The translations under genes were made by a program, and so were the position numbers. Of a stretch of DNA of 48,033 nucleotides, positions 4,564 to 16,278 are shown in pieces. Origin of the DNA: Pirellulales bacterium (GTDB lineage: Bacteria; Planctomycetota; Planctomycetia; Pirellulales; DATAWG01); contig DASZFO010000251.1 of assembly GCA_035939775.1 (NCBI GenBank), positions 1 to 48,033 on the forward strand. Reading direction: 5' to 3'. Position 1 is the stretch's first letter. Each line of letters starts with the position of its first letter. A model generated the notes under the pieces. It saw only the letters and a program-made list of their open reading frames with translations, had not been told where the DNA came from and ran no database searches.

Positions 4564-5883
4564 GTGAACAAGCTCAACGCTTGGCTATCTATCCTGTTTC
4601 GTTCGCCTATCTTCTGGGGCGGACTGCTCTCGGCGCTATACTACGGCGGCATTGAATCCGGAGTCGTCAGGAACCCGTTTCTGCTGCGGTTCACGGCGGG
4701 ACATTTCGTCGAGCACGTCGTGACGATGGTGTTCTTCGTCGGCAGCGCGGCGCTCGTGTTGAAAGGACTTGAAGTTCACGCGCAGCGCCGCGTTCCCGCG
4801 GGATCGCTGCTCGGACCGATCCCGTTCGGCGGCCAGACGGTGGACGACGCAGCCCGGCTGGCGGCCGAACTCGATCGCGCCCCGTCGAATCTGCAGCGTG
4901 GCTACTTGCTCCGCCGCTTGCGCGACGCGCTCGATCACATCATGCGGAGCGGCAATGCCGATTCGCTGGACACTGAGATCAAGTATCTCTCCGATCTCGA
5001 TGCGGTTCGCGCCCAGCATGGCTACGCGCTAGTGCGCGTGATCATCTGGTCGATCCCGATCATGGGTCTGTTGGGCACGGTGATCGGCATCACGGGGGCA
5101 TTTGCGAACTTGGTGTTTCGCGACGGCAAGCTCGACGACGCCTCGCTCCCCCAGGTGCTGGCCGGCTTGAAGGTGGCGTTCGACACGACCGGCATGGCCC
5201 TGTCGCTTTGCATGGCGCTGATGTTCGTGCAGTATTTCGTCGACCGGCTCGAATCGCAATTGCTTACGGAGGTCGACGCCCGAACGAACACCGAGTTGAA
5301 AGGCCGCTTTCAATCGAGCACGCTGGGGACCGATCCGCAGCTTGGGCCGATCCGGCGGATGGTCGAAGCGGTGCTGAAATCGAACGATCGCCTCGTCACG
5401 CGACAGGTCGAGATCTGGCGGCAATCGATGGACGCGGCCGAATCGAAGTTCGGCCAATTGGCCGCGTCGAGTGGCCAGCAATTGGAGTCGGCGCTCGCCG
5501 GGGCCTTGGACCAAACCCTCAAGGCGCATGCCGCGGCCGTTGCCGCCGCCGCGCAGAGTCACGCCGCGCAGAACGAGCGGCATTGGGGGCAAGTGCAGCA
5601 ATCGCTCGTGCAGGCCGCCGAAGCCGCTTCGCGACAGCAGGCCGAATTGGCCAAGCAAGCGGAGATCCTGCTGAAGGTGGTCGAGGCGACCGGCCAGGTC
5701 ACGCGATTGGAAGATGCGCTCAACCATAATCTCGCGGCACTGGGAGGTTCGCGGAACTTTGAAGAGACGCTCGTCGCCCTGGGGGCCGCGGTGCAGCTCT
5801 TGAGCGCTCGGCTCGCCCAAGGAACCGGCGACGTCCGGCCGATCGCGCTGGCCAAACCGAAACGGGTGGAAAAGGCGGCATGA
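4564..5883 (+). CDS. MotA/TolQ/ExbB-type proton channel protein
   Basis: The 439-residue protein starts at a GTG preceded by AAGGAAG. Membrane segments are at about 11-28, 50-68, 157-183 and 203-226. The last two form the MotA/TolQ/ExbB core, with IMGLLGTVIGITGAF and LKVAFDTTGMALSL typical of the family. In that family, five such subunits surround two ExbD-like rods and couple proton flow to work across the envelope. From about residue 280 to 420 a long alanine/glutamine-rich helical region (probable coiled coil) extends from the core, which ordinary ExbB lacks. The gene overlaps the next by four bases (ATGA), so the three genes to 9148 form one translationally coupled unit. What the motor drives is unknown. 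Confidence 0.82.
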   Translation: MNKLNAWLSILFRSPIFWGGLLSALYYGGIESGVVRNPFLLRFTAGHFVEHVVTMVFFVGSAALVLKGLEVHAQRRVPAGSLLGPIPFGGQTVDDAARLAAELDRAPSNLQRGYLLRRLRDALDHIMRSGNADSLDTEIKYLSDLDAVRAQHGYALVRVIIWSIPIMGLLGTVIGITGAFANLVFRDGKLDDASLPQVLAGLKVAFDTTGMALSLCMALMFVQYFVDRLESQLLTEVDARTNTELKGRFQSSTLGTDPQLGPIRRMVEAVLKSNDRLVTRQVEIWRQSMDAAESKFGQLAASSGQQLESALAGALDQTLKAHAAAVAAAAQSHAAQNERHWGQVQQSLVQAAEAASRQQAELAKQAEILLKVVEATGQVTRLEDALNHNLAALGGSRNFEETLVALGAAVQLLSARLAQGTGDVRPIALAKPKRVEKAA

Positions 5884-8135
5884 GACGTTCCGCGACGCCG
5901 CACAATCCGGGTGTCTCGCTCTTCCCCTTCCTTGCGGTGCTCATCTGCACGATGGGGGTGATGATGCTGCTATTGGTGGTCTGCAACCGGCCGGGCGCCG
6001 ACGACGACGGCGCGGCAGGCAACGGCTCTTCGCCTTCGGCCGCGACCGAAGCCCTGGTCGCCGCCGCCCGCGACGCACTTTCCGGAAAGATTGCCGACCT
6101 CGAAACGGCCCGCAAATCAACCGAAGCCGACCTGACTGACCGGCGCGTCCAATTGAGCGCCGAGGAACAGCGCATCCGCAAACTGTTGGACGATTGGAAT
6201 TCAATTCAGTCTGCCACGGCGAACCTCGAACAGGTCGAACATGCCAAGGGCGAGGCATTGCATCTGACGGAATCGCAAATCGCGCAGCTTGAGCAAGCTG
6301 TCAAGCGTGCTAGAGAACAGGCTGCGCTGGCGGCCGAGCGGGCCCGCAATGCACAGCCGTCGTTTGCGATCGTCCCATACGAAGGACCGAACGGCACTCG
6401 CCGCCGTCCGATTTATATCGAATGCGGTCCCGATCGCATTACGTTGCAGCCCGAAGGAGTCGTGCTCACGATCGAGGACTTCGCCGGCCCGGACGGACCT
6501 GGAAATCCGCTGGTGACGGTTTTGCGCGGCATTCGCGACTATCTGGCCGCCGGCAGTGCAGCGGGCCACCCGCAAGGCGAGCCGTATCCGCTGCTGATCG
6601 TCCGGCCGGATGGGATCGAACTGTTCTATCACGCGCGGCAGGCCATGGCCTCGTGGGCCACCGAGTTCGGCTACGAGTTGATCGAGCAAGATCGCAAGCT
6701 TGCCTATCCGCCACCGAATCCGCAATTGGCTCAGATCGAACAGACGGCGCTCGCCGACGCGCGGGCCCGCTACGCCTGGTTCGCCAATACGCGCACCGGA
6801 CGGAAAGAGGCAACCGGCGCGCGCCCCATGTATCGCGCATCCGTGACCGGCGGCGGAATCGTTCGCGAAGGAGGCGCGTCGCCTGACAGCGAAGGAGGCG
6901 TAGCCACGAACGACGCGCCGCCACCGGGCCAGGGATCGGGGGCCGCAGGTCCGAGGTCAGGATTAGGAGGCCCAACGTCAGCGTTCGGAGGTCCATCGTC
7001 GGGATTCGGGAACTCTGGCGGTGGTGGCTTCGGCGATCCACGTTTAGCCGCGAGCCAACAGCCGAGCGCGGCGGGCGCGCCGACCACAGCGTTTAGCGGA
7101 CTCAACGGCGCATATCATTCATCGGGAAGTTCATCTACCGCCGGATTTGGTGGTAGCCCGCCCGGAGCCGGCGACGTCTTCGGGGCCACCGGCACCGCGG
7201 GCGGAGCATTCAAGAGCGGACCCGAAGGCAGCACTTTTGCGGGAAGTGGCGATGCCAACGGCTTGCCCAGCGGCAGCCTCTCGCCTGGCGCAAATGGCGC
7301 GGCTGGCGCCAGCGCTGCGGGCGGAGCACTTAAGGGCGGACCTGAAGGCGGTATGTTTACAGGATCCAGTGCTGCCAGCGGAGCGCCTGCCGGCAACATT
7401 GCACCTCCTGGCTATGTCGCTGGCGGCAATCCCAGCGGAAGCGAGGTCGCCGGCGGCGCGGTGGGAAGCGAAGGCACCGGCGGCGACGGGCATGTTGCCG
7501 GGGGTATCGGCGGCAGCGCAAACGGCAGTATCGGTAGCAGCGGCGCTGGGAGCGGCTCGGCAGGAAATGGCGGCGGTTCGGCCGACGGAGGCGACGGCAT
7601 GTCGGGCGGTGGAGTCAGCATCACGATGAACGATGACCTTCACAACCGACGCGACTCCGATTCGCGGCCCCCCGACCCGCAACCCCGGACGCCGGATGGA
7701 CCGCACCCCGGTGAGTACGTCGACAGCCAACACTTCACACCGCCGAAACCGAAACCAGACGACGACGATCCGGCCAAGAAGCCGAAGAGCCTCGCGGAAA
7801 AGCGCGGCCGCAATTGGAGCTTGCCGGGATCGGCCAAACTCAGCGTGCCCGTATCGCGGCCAATTCACATCGAATGCCGCGGCGATCAATTGGTCATTCT
7901 TCCCGACCACGGCAACCCGGAGCCGCAAGCAATTTCGCTCGCGCCGCGCACGGAGGACTCGGTCGACAAGCTCGTCGCCGGCGTTTGGGCGCATACCAAG
8001 GGTTGGGGCATCGCGGGCCGGCAGATGTATTGGCGGCCGGTGCTGGTGCTCGAACTTGGCCCCAGCGGCGAAGGCCGGTTCAGCGAGTTGCAGGCCCTGA
8101 TGGCCAACAGCGGACTCGAAGTGACGCGCAAATGA
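5880..8135 (+). CDS. Long ExbD/TolR-like partner with glycine-rich centre
   Basis: The 751-residue protein has a single N-terminal membrane helix (about 13-35, SLFPFLAVLICTMGVMML) placed as in ExbD/TolR. Where ExbD has its proton-carrying aspartate the alignment by eye gives alanine (PFLAVLI). Residues 60-158 look like a coiled coil. Residues about 162-272 hold a domain opening with RRPIYIECGPDRITLQPEG. Residues about 312-565 are rich in glycine, serine and alanine and probably unstructured. The last 93 residues repeat the first domain's opening (SRPIHIECRGDQLVILP) and end (FSELQALMANSGLEV). The N-terminus MRRSATP matches the MRRSAP of the next protein, which suggests duplication. It overlaps both neighbours by four bases. 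Function is inferred from position and topology. Confidence 0.65.
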   Translation: MRRSATPHNPGVSLFPFLAVLICTMGVMMLLLVVCNRPGADDDGAAGNGSSPSAATEALVAAARDALSGKIADLETARKSTEADLTDRRVQLSAEEQRIRKLLDDWNSIQSATANLEQVEHAKGEALHLTESQIAQLEQAVKRAREQAALAAERARNAQPSFAIVPYEGPNGTRRRPIYIECGPDRITLQPEGVVLTIEDFAGPDGPGNPLVTVLRGIRDYLAAGSAAGHPQGEPYPLLIVRPDGIELFYHARQAMASWATEFGYELIEQDRKLAYPPPNPQLAQIEQTALADARARYAWFANTRTGRKEATGARPMYRASVTGGGIVREGGASPDSEGGVATNDAPPPGQGSGAAGPRSGLGGPTSAFGGPSSGFGNSGGGGFGDPRLAASQQPSAAGAPTTAFSGLNGAYHSSGSSSTAGFGGSPPGAGDVFGATGTAGGAFKSGPEGSTFAGSGDANGLPSGSLSPGANGAAGASAAGGALKGGPEGGMFTGSSAASGAPAGNIAPPGYVAGGNPSGSEVAGGAVGSEGTGGDGHVAGGIGGSANGSIGSSGAGSGSAGNGGGSADGGDGMSGGGVSITMNDDLHNRRDSDSRPPDPQPRTPDGPHPGEYVDSQHFTPPKPKPDDDDPAKKPKSLAEKRGRNWSLPGSAKLSVPVSRPIHIECRGDQLVILPDHGNPEPQAISLAPRTEDSVDKLVAGVWAHTKGWGIAGRQMYWRPVLVLELGPSGEGRFSELQALMANSGLEVTRK

Positions 8136-9148
8136 GAAGATCAGCTCCCGAAACGGTTGAAACCTCCGGCCAAGATTCCTTCGTCGACGTGGTGACGAAT
8201 CTGGTCGGGATCATGATCGTGCTGGTGATCATCGTCGGCGTGCGCGTGAAACACGTGTGGGTCGATCCGGGCGACGGAAAGCCACGGCCCGCCGGGGCCA
8301 CTCATGCCGATCCCGACGCTGCGCTCACCTCATTGCAATCCAAGGAGGTCGAAATCGAAGGCGACCTTCACCGTGAAGCTCAGCAAGTTGCATTGGTCGA
8401 ACAAGAATTGGCCGCCCGGTCGAATGAACGCGAGCAACTCGCCGCTCGGTTGGCCGTCGGCGAGCGCGAGTTGGCCGGCCGCCGTTCGCATCTTGAGTCT
8501 GGCTCGCGGACCGACTTCGATCTGCAGCAACAGCTCGCCGCTTTGCAGCGACAACTCGCGGAGAACCAGCAGGAAGTGGTCCGGGCGGAAAACGACCGAC
8601 CGCCGCCGGTCGAAATGAAGCACTACCTGACGCCGATCAGCCGAACCGTATTCGGCAAAGAGGTGCATTTCCGGCTGTCGCAGGGCCGGATTGCGTATGT
8701 GCCCTTGGAGGAGTTGCTCGACGAGGCGAAATCAAGCATTCAAAAGGAATTGGCCGAGACTAGGTCTCCCACCGCGCTGACCGAGCACGAGCAATCGATC
8801 GGCCCATACGCCGGCTTCGAGATGCTATACGCGGTGGCGATCAAATCGGCCGGGACGGGGCGGGTGGAATTGGGGTTCCGCGAGATACAGATCGTCCCCG
8901 TGGCGGGCGAGCCGGGCGAAACGCTGAGCGACGCCTTGCGGCCGACCTCCGAATTTCGCCGCCGGCTAGCCGAACACGATCCCTCGCAAAGCACCGCGAC
9001 GATCTGGGTCTATCCCGACGGCTTCGCGGATTTCCGCACGATTCGCGAAGAGCTGTACCGGCTTGGCTTCGCGACGGCCGCCCGGCCGCTCCCGCTGGGG
9101 ATGAACATAACCGGATCGGATCACGGATCCCACTCGGCCGCGCAATAG
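8132..9148 (+). CDS. ExbD/TolR-like protein with membrane aspartate and coiled coil
   Basis: The ATG at 8132 overlaps the previous stop (ATGA) and gives 338 residues; a longer in-frame start upstream lies inside the previous gene and is not used. The single membrane helix (about 17-38, FVDVVTNLVGIMIVLVIIVG) carries D19, placed as the essential aspartate of ExbD/TolR. Residues 65-155 form a coiled coil. The periplasmic part (about 162-330) opens with FGKEVHFRLSQGRIAYVPLE and ends with TIWVYPDGFADFRTIREEL, the same pattern as the two domains in the 751-residue partner. It likely forms the rod of the proton-driven complex together with that protein. It converges with the phosphatase gene 13 bases downstream. 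Confidence 0.72.
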   Translation: MRRSAPETVETSGQDSFVDVVTNLVGIMIVLVIIVGVRVKHVWVDPGDGKPRPAGATHADPDAALTSLQSKEVEIEGDLHREAQQVALVEQELAARSNEREQLAARLAVGERELAGRRSHLESGSRTDFDLQQQLAALQRQLAENQQEVVRAENDRPPPVEMKHYLTPISRTVFGKEVHFRLSQGRIAYVPLEELLDEAKSSIQKELAETRSPTALTEHEQSIGPYAGFEMLYAVAIKSAGTGRVELGFREIQIVPVAGEPGETLSDALRPTSEFRRRLAEHDPSQSTATIWVYPDGFADFRTIREELYRLGFATAARPLPLGMNITGSDHGSHSAAQ

Positions 9149-14784: not shown

Positions 14785-16278
14785 CTAGTGGAGAATTTGG
14801 CAGTTTACTAACTTATGTCGAAGTTCCTTCAGACCCGCTTCCGTAACCTTCGTGCTGGTCAAATCCAGTGTCTGGAGATCCTTTAATCCAACCAGTTCCT
14901 TCATTCCCTGGTCCGTCACTTGAGTAGCTCTGAGGTTCAGCGTTTGAAGGTTCGTCAATGCGGCGAGGTCTTTCAGACCCTCATCAGTAACCTGTGTGAG
15001 TCTCAGGTTCAAGGTCTGGAGGCTCTTTACCCGGGCGAGTTGCTCTAATCCTAGGTCGTTGACCTGCGTGCCCAAGAGGTCGAGCGACTGGAGGTCTTTC
15101 AAATCGGCCAATTCTTTGAGCCCCTCGCCCGATACCTGCGTCCAGCTAAGGTTCAGCGTCTGAAGGTTCGTCAACCCGGAGAGTTCCTTCAACCCCGCGT
15201 CGGTCACTTCCGTTTCACTGACGACCAATGTCCGGAGCCTCTTCAACCCAGCGAGTCCCTTCAGCCCCGCATCGGTAAGTTTGGTGTCAGCAAGATAGAT
15301 GGTACTAAGGCTCTTTAGCGATGCAAGCTTCTTCAATCCTCCATCGGTCACTTTCGTGCTGGCTAGAACCAGCGTCTGGAGACTCGTAATCTCGGCCAGA
15401 CCGTCCAGCCCAGCATCGGTCGCTTGCGAACCGTAGAGATCGAGCGATTGGAGGTTGTGCAGCCCGGCCAACTGCTTTAGCCCTGTGCCCGTCACCTTCG
15501 TATATAAGAGGCTCAGAACTCGGAGGCGCTTCAGTCCGGCCAGTTCCTTCAATCCCGCGTCCGTCACGTTCGTGTAGCTGAGATCCAGCGTCTGGAGGCT
15601 TTGCAGTCCAGCCAGTTCCTTCAGCCCTGCGTCCGAAGTTAGCGTGAAGCCGAGGTTCAGTGTTTGGAGGCCTTTGAGCGCAGCCAACTCACTCAGATCG
15701 GTATCTACCACTGTCGCGGCACCGAGGTTGAGCACCTTCAGGCTTTTCAATCTCGCAAGCTCCTTGAGCCCCGCGGTCGTCAAATGCGCGTCACTGACGA
15801 TCAGAATTTGGAGACTCCTCGACTGAGCCAATTCCTTCAGTCCCGAATCGGTCACGCCCGTGCTGCTCAGGATTAACGTGTTGAGACCCGTCATTCCGGC
15901 TAGTTCCTTCAATGCCTCGTCGTTCATCCGAGTGCCGTGGAGATTTAATCCAAATGCTCGCATTGGTTGCGGCAGGCGGCTCACGATGGCAGGTTTCCAC
16001 TCACGAAACTGAAACGCCGGAATTTCGCCATCAACTCCCGCTGGATCCTGGTAATAGTGCAATGTTCCATAGTCATCTAAGCTCATCCAACCGACCTCAG
16101 CTCCTGCCTGTTGCCATGCTTTGGCCATATCCTCAGGCAGCAGTTGTGATCGCTTTTCCGCACGTTTGTTGGCATCGAGCGATTTGCTCGTCGAACTAGC
16201 GACCGGTTCGACTGCATTACCCGTGCCCTCAGCAAATAGCAGTGCGCAAACGAACGCGGCGGTTAATTGAATGCGCAC
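14785..16278 (-). CDS. Secreted leucine-rich-repeat protein, about 15 repeats
   Basis: The 497-residue protein starts at a GTG with AAGGAG seven bases upstream, a good ribosome-binding site. The first 22 residues (MRIQLTAAFVCALLFAEGTG) are a signal peptide. Residues about 30-110 are not repeated. From about 113 to the end run about fifteen 24-residue LRRs of the pattern LxxLxxLQTLxLxxTxVTDAGLKELAG. The repeats are very alike, so the array has probably grown by internal duplication. LRR arrays bind proteins or glycans; no catalytic part is seen. It is divergent from pyrB with 175 bases between. It resembles the smaller LRR protein at 905-1825. Confidence 0.85.
   Translation of the reverse strand: MRIQLTAAFVCALLFAEGTGNAVEPVASSTSKSLDANKRAEKRSQLLPEDMAKAWQQAGAEVGWMSLDDYGTLHYYQDPAGVDGEIPAFQFREWKPAIVSRLPQPMRAFGLNLHGTRMNDEALKELAGMTGLNTLILSSTGVTDSGLKELAQSRSLQILIVSDAHLTTAGLKELARLKSLKVLNLGAATVVDTDLSELAALKGLQTLNLGFTLTSDAGLKELAGLQSLQTLDLSYTNVTDAGLKELAGLKRLRVLSLLYTKVTGTGLKQLAGLHNLQSLDLYGSQATDAGLDGLAEITSLQTLVLASTKVTDGGLKKLASLKSLSTIYLADTKLTDAGLKGLAGLKRLRTLVVSETEVTDAGLKELSGLTNLQTLNLSWTQVSGEGLKELADLKDLQSLDLLGTQVNDLGLEQLARVKSLQTLNLRLTQVTDEGLKDLAALTNLQTLNLRATQVTDQGMKELVGLKDLQTLDLTSTKVTEAGLKELRHKLVNCQILH

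Follow-up and report, generated by a model that had tools for sequence, protein, structure and literature searches.

Three genes lie end to end on the + strand of the 48,033-nucleotide stretch of Pirellulales DNA that we analyzed (the window; coordinates without a contig name refer to it). The first, at 4564-5883, starts with GTG and encodes an ExbB/TolQ-type subunit of 439 aa, which we call the ring protein; the second and third encode its two partners, B1 (5880-8135, 751 aa) and B2 (8132-9148, 338 aa). A reading made from the sequence alone (the sequence-only reading) had described three open reading frames coupled by ATGA, and both the coordinates and the two overlaps (5880-5883 and 8132-8135) proved correct. 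An overlap of 4 bases is also found between the ring gene and B1 in 62 of 97 relatives and between B1 and B2 in 14 of 111. The flanking genes in the window encode a radical SAM protein, a glycosyltransferase-like protein, PP2C, PEGA, and an FAD oxidoreductase. The radical SAM protein (1995-2879), whose gene adjoins that for the glycosyltransferase-like protein, gave weak profile matches to prokaryotic viperins (31 bits), and leucine-rich-repeat proteins are encoded on both sides of the region (905-1825 and 14785-16278).

The ring protein exceeded the 22.9-bit cut-off of Pfam MotA_ExbB (PF01618) with a score of 38 bits. A PDB search with the single sequence returned no match; a profile of its relatives matched solved TolQ, ExbB, MotA, and PomA chains (E 0.002-0.07). 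Based on these profile matches, we assign the gene product to the MotA/TolQ/ExbB family. A long helical C-terminal tail is predicted at about residues 250-439. In the profile alignment, Thr172 (5077-5079) occupies the place of TolQ T145/ExbB T148, and Thr209, which closes the triplet Asp207-Thr208-Thr209 (5182-5190), occupies that of TolQ T178/ExbB T181. Both threonines are invariant in the ring alignment (A3), and their TolQ counterparts lie near Asp23 of TolR in the Escherichia coli structure (PMC12215075). Residue 175 (5086-5088) is Gly here, as in 88 of 88 rings of the common type, and His in 12 of 12 rings of an alternative type.

The AlphaFold model of B1 (m8a5bd15ed8ae) runs from a membrane helix (residues 15-36) through a coiled-coil hairpin (52-157), an ExbD/TolR-like domain, and a glycine-rich linker to a second ExbD/TolR-like domain. 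With VIA-align, the N-terminal periplasmic domain (residues 162-276; 6363-6707) scored Z 6.2 against TolR 5by4, Z 5.6 against ExbD 8pek, and Z 5.5 against 8p9r, with unrelated folds scoring equally, and the C-terminal domain (residues 656-751; 7845-8132) reached Z 5.7 over 69 of 72 residues of ExbD 8vgd, again tied with unrelated folds. Because of these ties, the resemblance of both modeled domains to TolR/ExbD (Z 5.5-6.2, most of the target covered) is only tentative. The two domains aligned to each other in hhalign with a probability of 88% (E 2.9e-6), and the C-terminal one is an apparent duplicate of the N-terminal one. The disordered linker (6807-7799, placed by its composition and by pLDDT <50 over residues 337-630) comprises 360 aa with 24% Gly, exceeding the glycine-rich center of 250 residues originally reported. 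When the B1 profile was searched against PDB sequences, the only matches were to coiled coils.

In its own model (m635622a490e4, pLDDT 85.5), B2 has a membrane helix (15-41), a coiled-coil hairpin (61-154), and an alpha/beta periplasmic domain (176-319). This architecture, with a single membrane helix at the N terminus followed by a long coiled-coil hairpin and then an alpha/beta domain, is common to the two partners. Foldseek matches to the B2 periplasmic fold were no better than E 0.1, and TolR/ExbD was absent among those listed, which counts neither for nor against such a fold. Neither B1 nor B2 matched Pfam ExbD/TolR (PF02472) at E 1; that family was absent among the 25 families listed for the B1 alignment and for the B2 alignment, and no credible Pfam match of any kind was found for either protein. 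We file both as putatively ExbD-like in function and outside Pfam's ExbD family. A profile alignment of the two membrane segments (probability 89%, E 2.4e-6) sets B1 Ala19 (5934-5936) opposite B2 Asp19 (8186-8188), the predicted ion-carrying residue, which is invariant in alignments A1 and A4 and present in 113 of 113 rows with a recognizable motif. The sequence-only reading had named both residues correctly, and its claim that only the second partner carries the membrane aspartate is borne out by this alignment. The MRRSA that it saw at both N termini varies among relatives as an exact string; what is kept is a basic N terminus.

A survey of 97 genomes of the order turned up B2 in 91, mostly as a single copy. 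In the class Planctomycetia as a whole, 242 of the 289 good genomes have it, and few genomes outside the class do. The titles of the 80 named loci retained from the genome collection are almost entirely planctomycete. The ring gene, B1, and B2 adjoin in most loci, and we dismiss a chance origin of the operon because it is conserved across the class. An uncharacterized module of the MotA/TolQ/ExbB type in which the two ExbD-like partners are unequal, as the sequence-only reading had proposed, is kept class-wide. No conserved fourth gene or functional neighborhood was detected across the relatives' loci, where the genes on either side have housekeeping roles and vary from clade to clade. Canonical ExbB/ExbD genes occur elsewhere in the same genome, and no TonB_C was found in it (assembly 96% complete). 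At C309:57013-58362 (loci L326 and L327, same genome), a canonical ExbB gene stands beside two tandem ExbD genes, at least one of which keeps the membrane Asp (NLTPILDMVF). ExbB, TolQ, and MotA go unmentioned in the main text of the paper on essential genes of P. limnophila.

The identity of B1 residue 19 varies with the type of ring. Where the ring has Gly175, residue 19 is Ala, Ser, Thr, or Gly, and is Asp or Glu in none of the surveyed set. In 12 genomes, the ring carries His175 and Asn207 in place of Gly175 and the mostly present Asp207, and B1 residue 19 is Asp in 10 of these, Glu in 1, and Ser in 1 (G037) despite the alternative ring. Within ring residues 150-239, eight positions separate the two types, and only 175 and 207 change ionizable groups. 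Asp207 is not essential in the common type, given its replacement by Asn, Gly, or Ala in 7 of 88 rings, with Ala19 in B1. We dropped a strict charge swap from ring Asp207 to B1 residue 19 as the sole rule because these replacements coexist with Ala19. The alternative rings are mostly encoded elsewhere, at unlinked, inverted, or rearranged places. Their genes (L221-L235) lie mostly at unrelated sites with no evident conserved neighbor, and their patchy spread over four families of the order is as expected of transfer or differential loss.

In the trees, the alternative rings form one clade (support 100) outside the other rings of the order, whereas the B1 and B2 proteins of the same genomes fall in about five places, each with their hosts' relatives. 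Approximately unbiased (AU) tests rejected a grouping of the ring by host family f14 (p 3e-6) and a single clade of alternative-ring B2 (p 0.00015); a single clade of alternative-ring B1 was rejected marginally (p 0.044, membrane segment left out). B1 proteins of f14 with Asp group with those of f14 with Ala (support 100), and little differs among their membrane segments besides position 19 and its neighbors. Together, the trees and tests indicate that the ring has had a history different from that of B1/B2, through transfer or through old paralogy and differential loss, and that B1 residue 19 changed separately in several lineages. Five ring switches were counted on the B1 tree, three of them on well-supported branches, with groups named after the trait had been seen; because the switches are few, a sign test cannot reach 0.05.

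Family f22 retains B1 and B2 with no adjacent ring gene and no full-scoring ring elsewhere. Both membrane motifs, Asp19 included, are lost there, and the periplasmic domains remain, a pattern of decay suggesting that the motifs are maintained only for work inside a ring. A separate unit in f22 (L237-L242, L334-L339) encodes a ring protein with Glu in its second pore helix (GTVEGI) and an axle-like partner of roughly 250 aa that reads DSFVAVV where the motif is DSFVDVV; in that unit, the ring rather than the axle appears to carry the acid.

From these observations we infer an ion-driven membrane motor of the 5:2 type, akin to ExbB/TolQ/MotA, whose axle consists of B1 and B2 and bears one ion-carrying Asp, a reading that we consider somewhat favored by the evidence. 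Two patterns lend indirect support to the idea that both helices lie in the channel and form a mixed axle: B1 residue 19 tracks the ring type, with an acid arising separately in several lineages, and the two membrane motifs have degenerated where no ring is found. In such a motor, five ring subunits would enclose one B1 helix and one B2 helix, and only B2 Asp19 would take up and release the ion, at ring threonines T172 and T209. B1 Ala19 would be a fixed, nonprotonatable position, making the axle permanently asymmetric, and with a single ion site a full turn is predicted to take five ions and to proceed in five 72-degree steps, not ten 36-degree steps. For this motor, we infer heterodimerization, a 5:1:1 stoichiometry, rotation, step size, load, and ion. 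The coiled-coil hairpins and ExbD/TolR-like domains would make up the periplasmic head, and B1, with its two such domains and glycine-rich linker, may transmit force too, through its arm and second domain, with the outer membrane or the cell wall as a possible recipient. Envelope force transmission as the load is a guess of low confidence, based on the B1 arm and the absence of TonB_C.

More tentatively, and as a possibility on which we would not insist, this can be read as a one-site 5:2 motor in which a fixed B1:B2 pair is the axle and its lone ion-binding Asp cuts the ten-step symmetry to five, ionizable groups are redistributed between axle and ring (an Asp207 ring with an Ala axle, a His175/Asn207 ring with an Asp axle), and B1 serves as axle and force arm in one chain. 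Several points count against our best reading: B1 and B2 could pair as separate homodimers, the ring switches are few, His175 and Asn207 are only two of eight clade-specific ring positions, Asp207 is dispensable in the common type, and G037 has Ser at B1 residue 19 beside the alternative ring. To these add the lack of a clear match for the B2 periplasmic fold and of a Pfam ExbD match for either partner.

Rather unlikely, in our judgment, is an arrangement in which two homodimeric axles share one ring, with a B2:B2 motor bearing two Asp and an Asp-less B1:B1 form that, in most species, would be either silent or regulatory. Such an arrangement would agree with the known ExbD, TolR, and MotB axles, which are homodimers, and in the AglRQS system the pairing of AglQ and AglS as homo- or heterodimers is undecided (PMC9389320). 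However, a class-wide, acid-less B1 homodimer as a separate form of the ring is hard to explain, and matched amounts of the proteins are suggested by the translational coupling of the genes. The gain of an acid in B1 upon ring change fits either view. We give still less credence to B1 as a TonB/TolA-like accessory outside the ring, with B2 alone as the axle. Its long flexible linker and C-terminal domain, the binding of TonB and TolA outside the ring (PMC12215075), and the lack of TonB_C in the genome speak for this role, but the B1 membrane segment is homologous to that of B2, with residue 19 matching the Asp place, and a change of that residue to Asp or Glu with the alternative ring would have no evident reason outside the ring.

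It is improbable that the change from Ala to Asp or Glu reflects drift, or a hidden common ancestry of the alternative B1 proteins, with residue 19 having no role. The independent switches are few and the one-clade rejection for B1 is marginal, as such an explanation would have it; yet no common-ring B1 of the surveyed set has an acid, the Asp-bearing f14 proteins cluster with their Ala-bearing relatives, and Glu appears besides Asp. In favor of a Zorya-like antiphage motor are the long ring tail, a feature shared with ZorAB, itself a 5:2 motor (PMC11890865), and a weak ZorA2 profile match (35 bits). Such a motor is very improbable here, since the operon is core and mostly single-copy in the order rather than a patchy defense gene, no effector genes or ZorC, ZorD, or ZorE matches lie alongside, B1 and B2 lack an OmpA-type match, and the comparison with Zorya models suggested by the sequence-only reading gave ZorA2 (NCBIfam) 14 bits against a cut-off of 700.

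Among described systems, the nearest to the proposed B1:B2 motor is AglRQS of Myxococcus xanthus gliding motility, which also combines a single ring protein of the TolQ kind with two partners resembling TolR; an equivalent, or any motor with one Asp-less axle partner, was not found in the literature searched. AglQ and AglS both carry the membrane Asp (PMC9389320), whereas here B2 alone does. The partners here are further set apart by their coiled-coil hairpins and, in B1, by the domain duplication and the glycine-rich linker. Our system has the ring family, the Thr pair facing the Asp and, tentatively, the fold of the B1 domains in common with ExbB5-ExbD2 and TolQ5-TolR2, but the known axles of these are homodimers with two Asp; in addition, B1 and B2 have no Pfam ExbD match and the operon has no TonB/TolA partner gene. 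MotAB and PomAB resemble it in the logic of axle Asp and ring Thr, with Thr208-Thr209 recalling PomA T185-T186, which is needed in a Na+ motor (PMC6677748); given this pair, the ion may be Na+ and not H+. They differ in that we found no match to a peptidoglycan-binding OmpA domain and no flagellar context here.

Models of 5:2 motors are built on an axle of two equivalent helices, each with its Asp, that fire alternately. In a published scheme, each ion drives a 36-degree step between equivalent axle chains (PMC9389320), and the two Asp of the TolR homodimer already lie in different environments (PMC12215075). If a one-Asp motor is true of the class, one site suffices, the asymmetry is fixed where that of the TolR homodimer is positional only, and the 36-degree stepping model becomes testable by natural variants, among which the repeated change from Ala to Asp or Glu after ring replacement provides ready-made mutants. 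In addition, the three-gene module is an uncharacterized, conserved component of the planctomycete envelope. Several families, some of them outside the class, have a second, shorter paralogous module (L155-L159, L164, L165, L168, L170, L171, and L173), in which B1 is about 270-330 aa, has neither linker nor second domain, and carries Ser at the Asp place, and in which the B2 motif is LDSLLDTMTNVVGIL.
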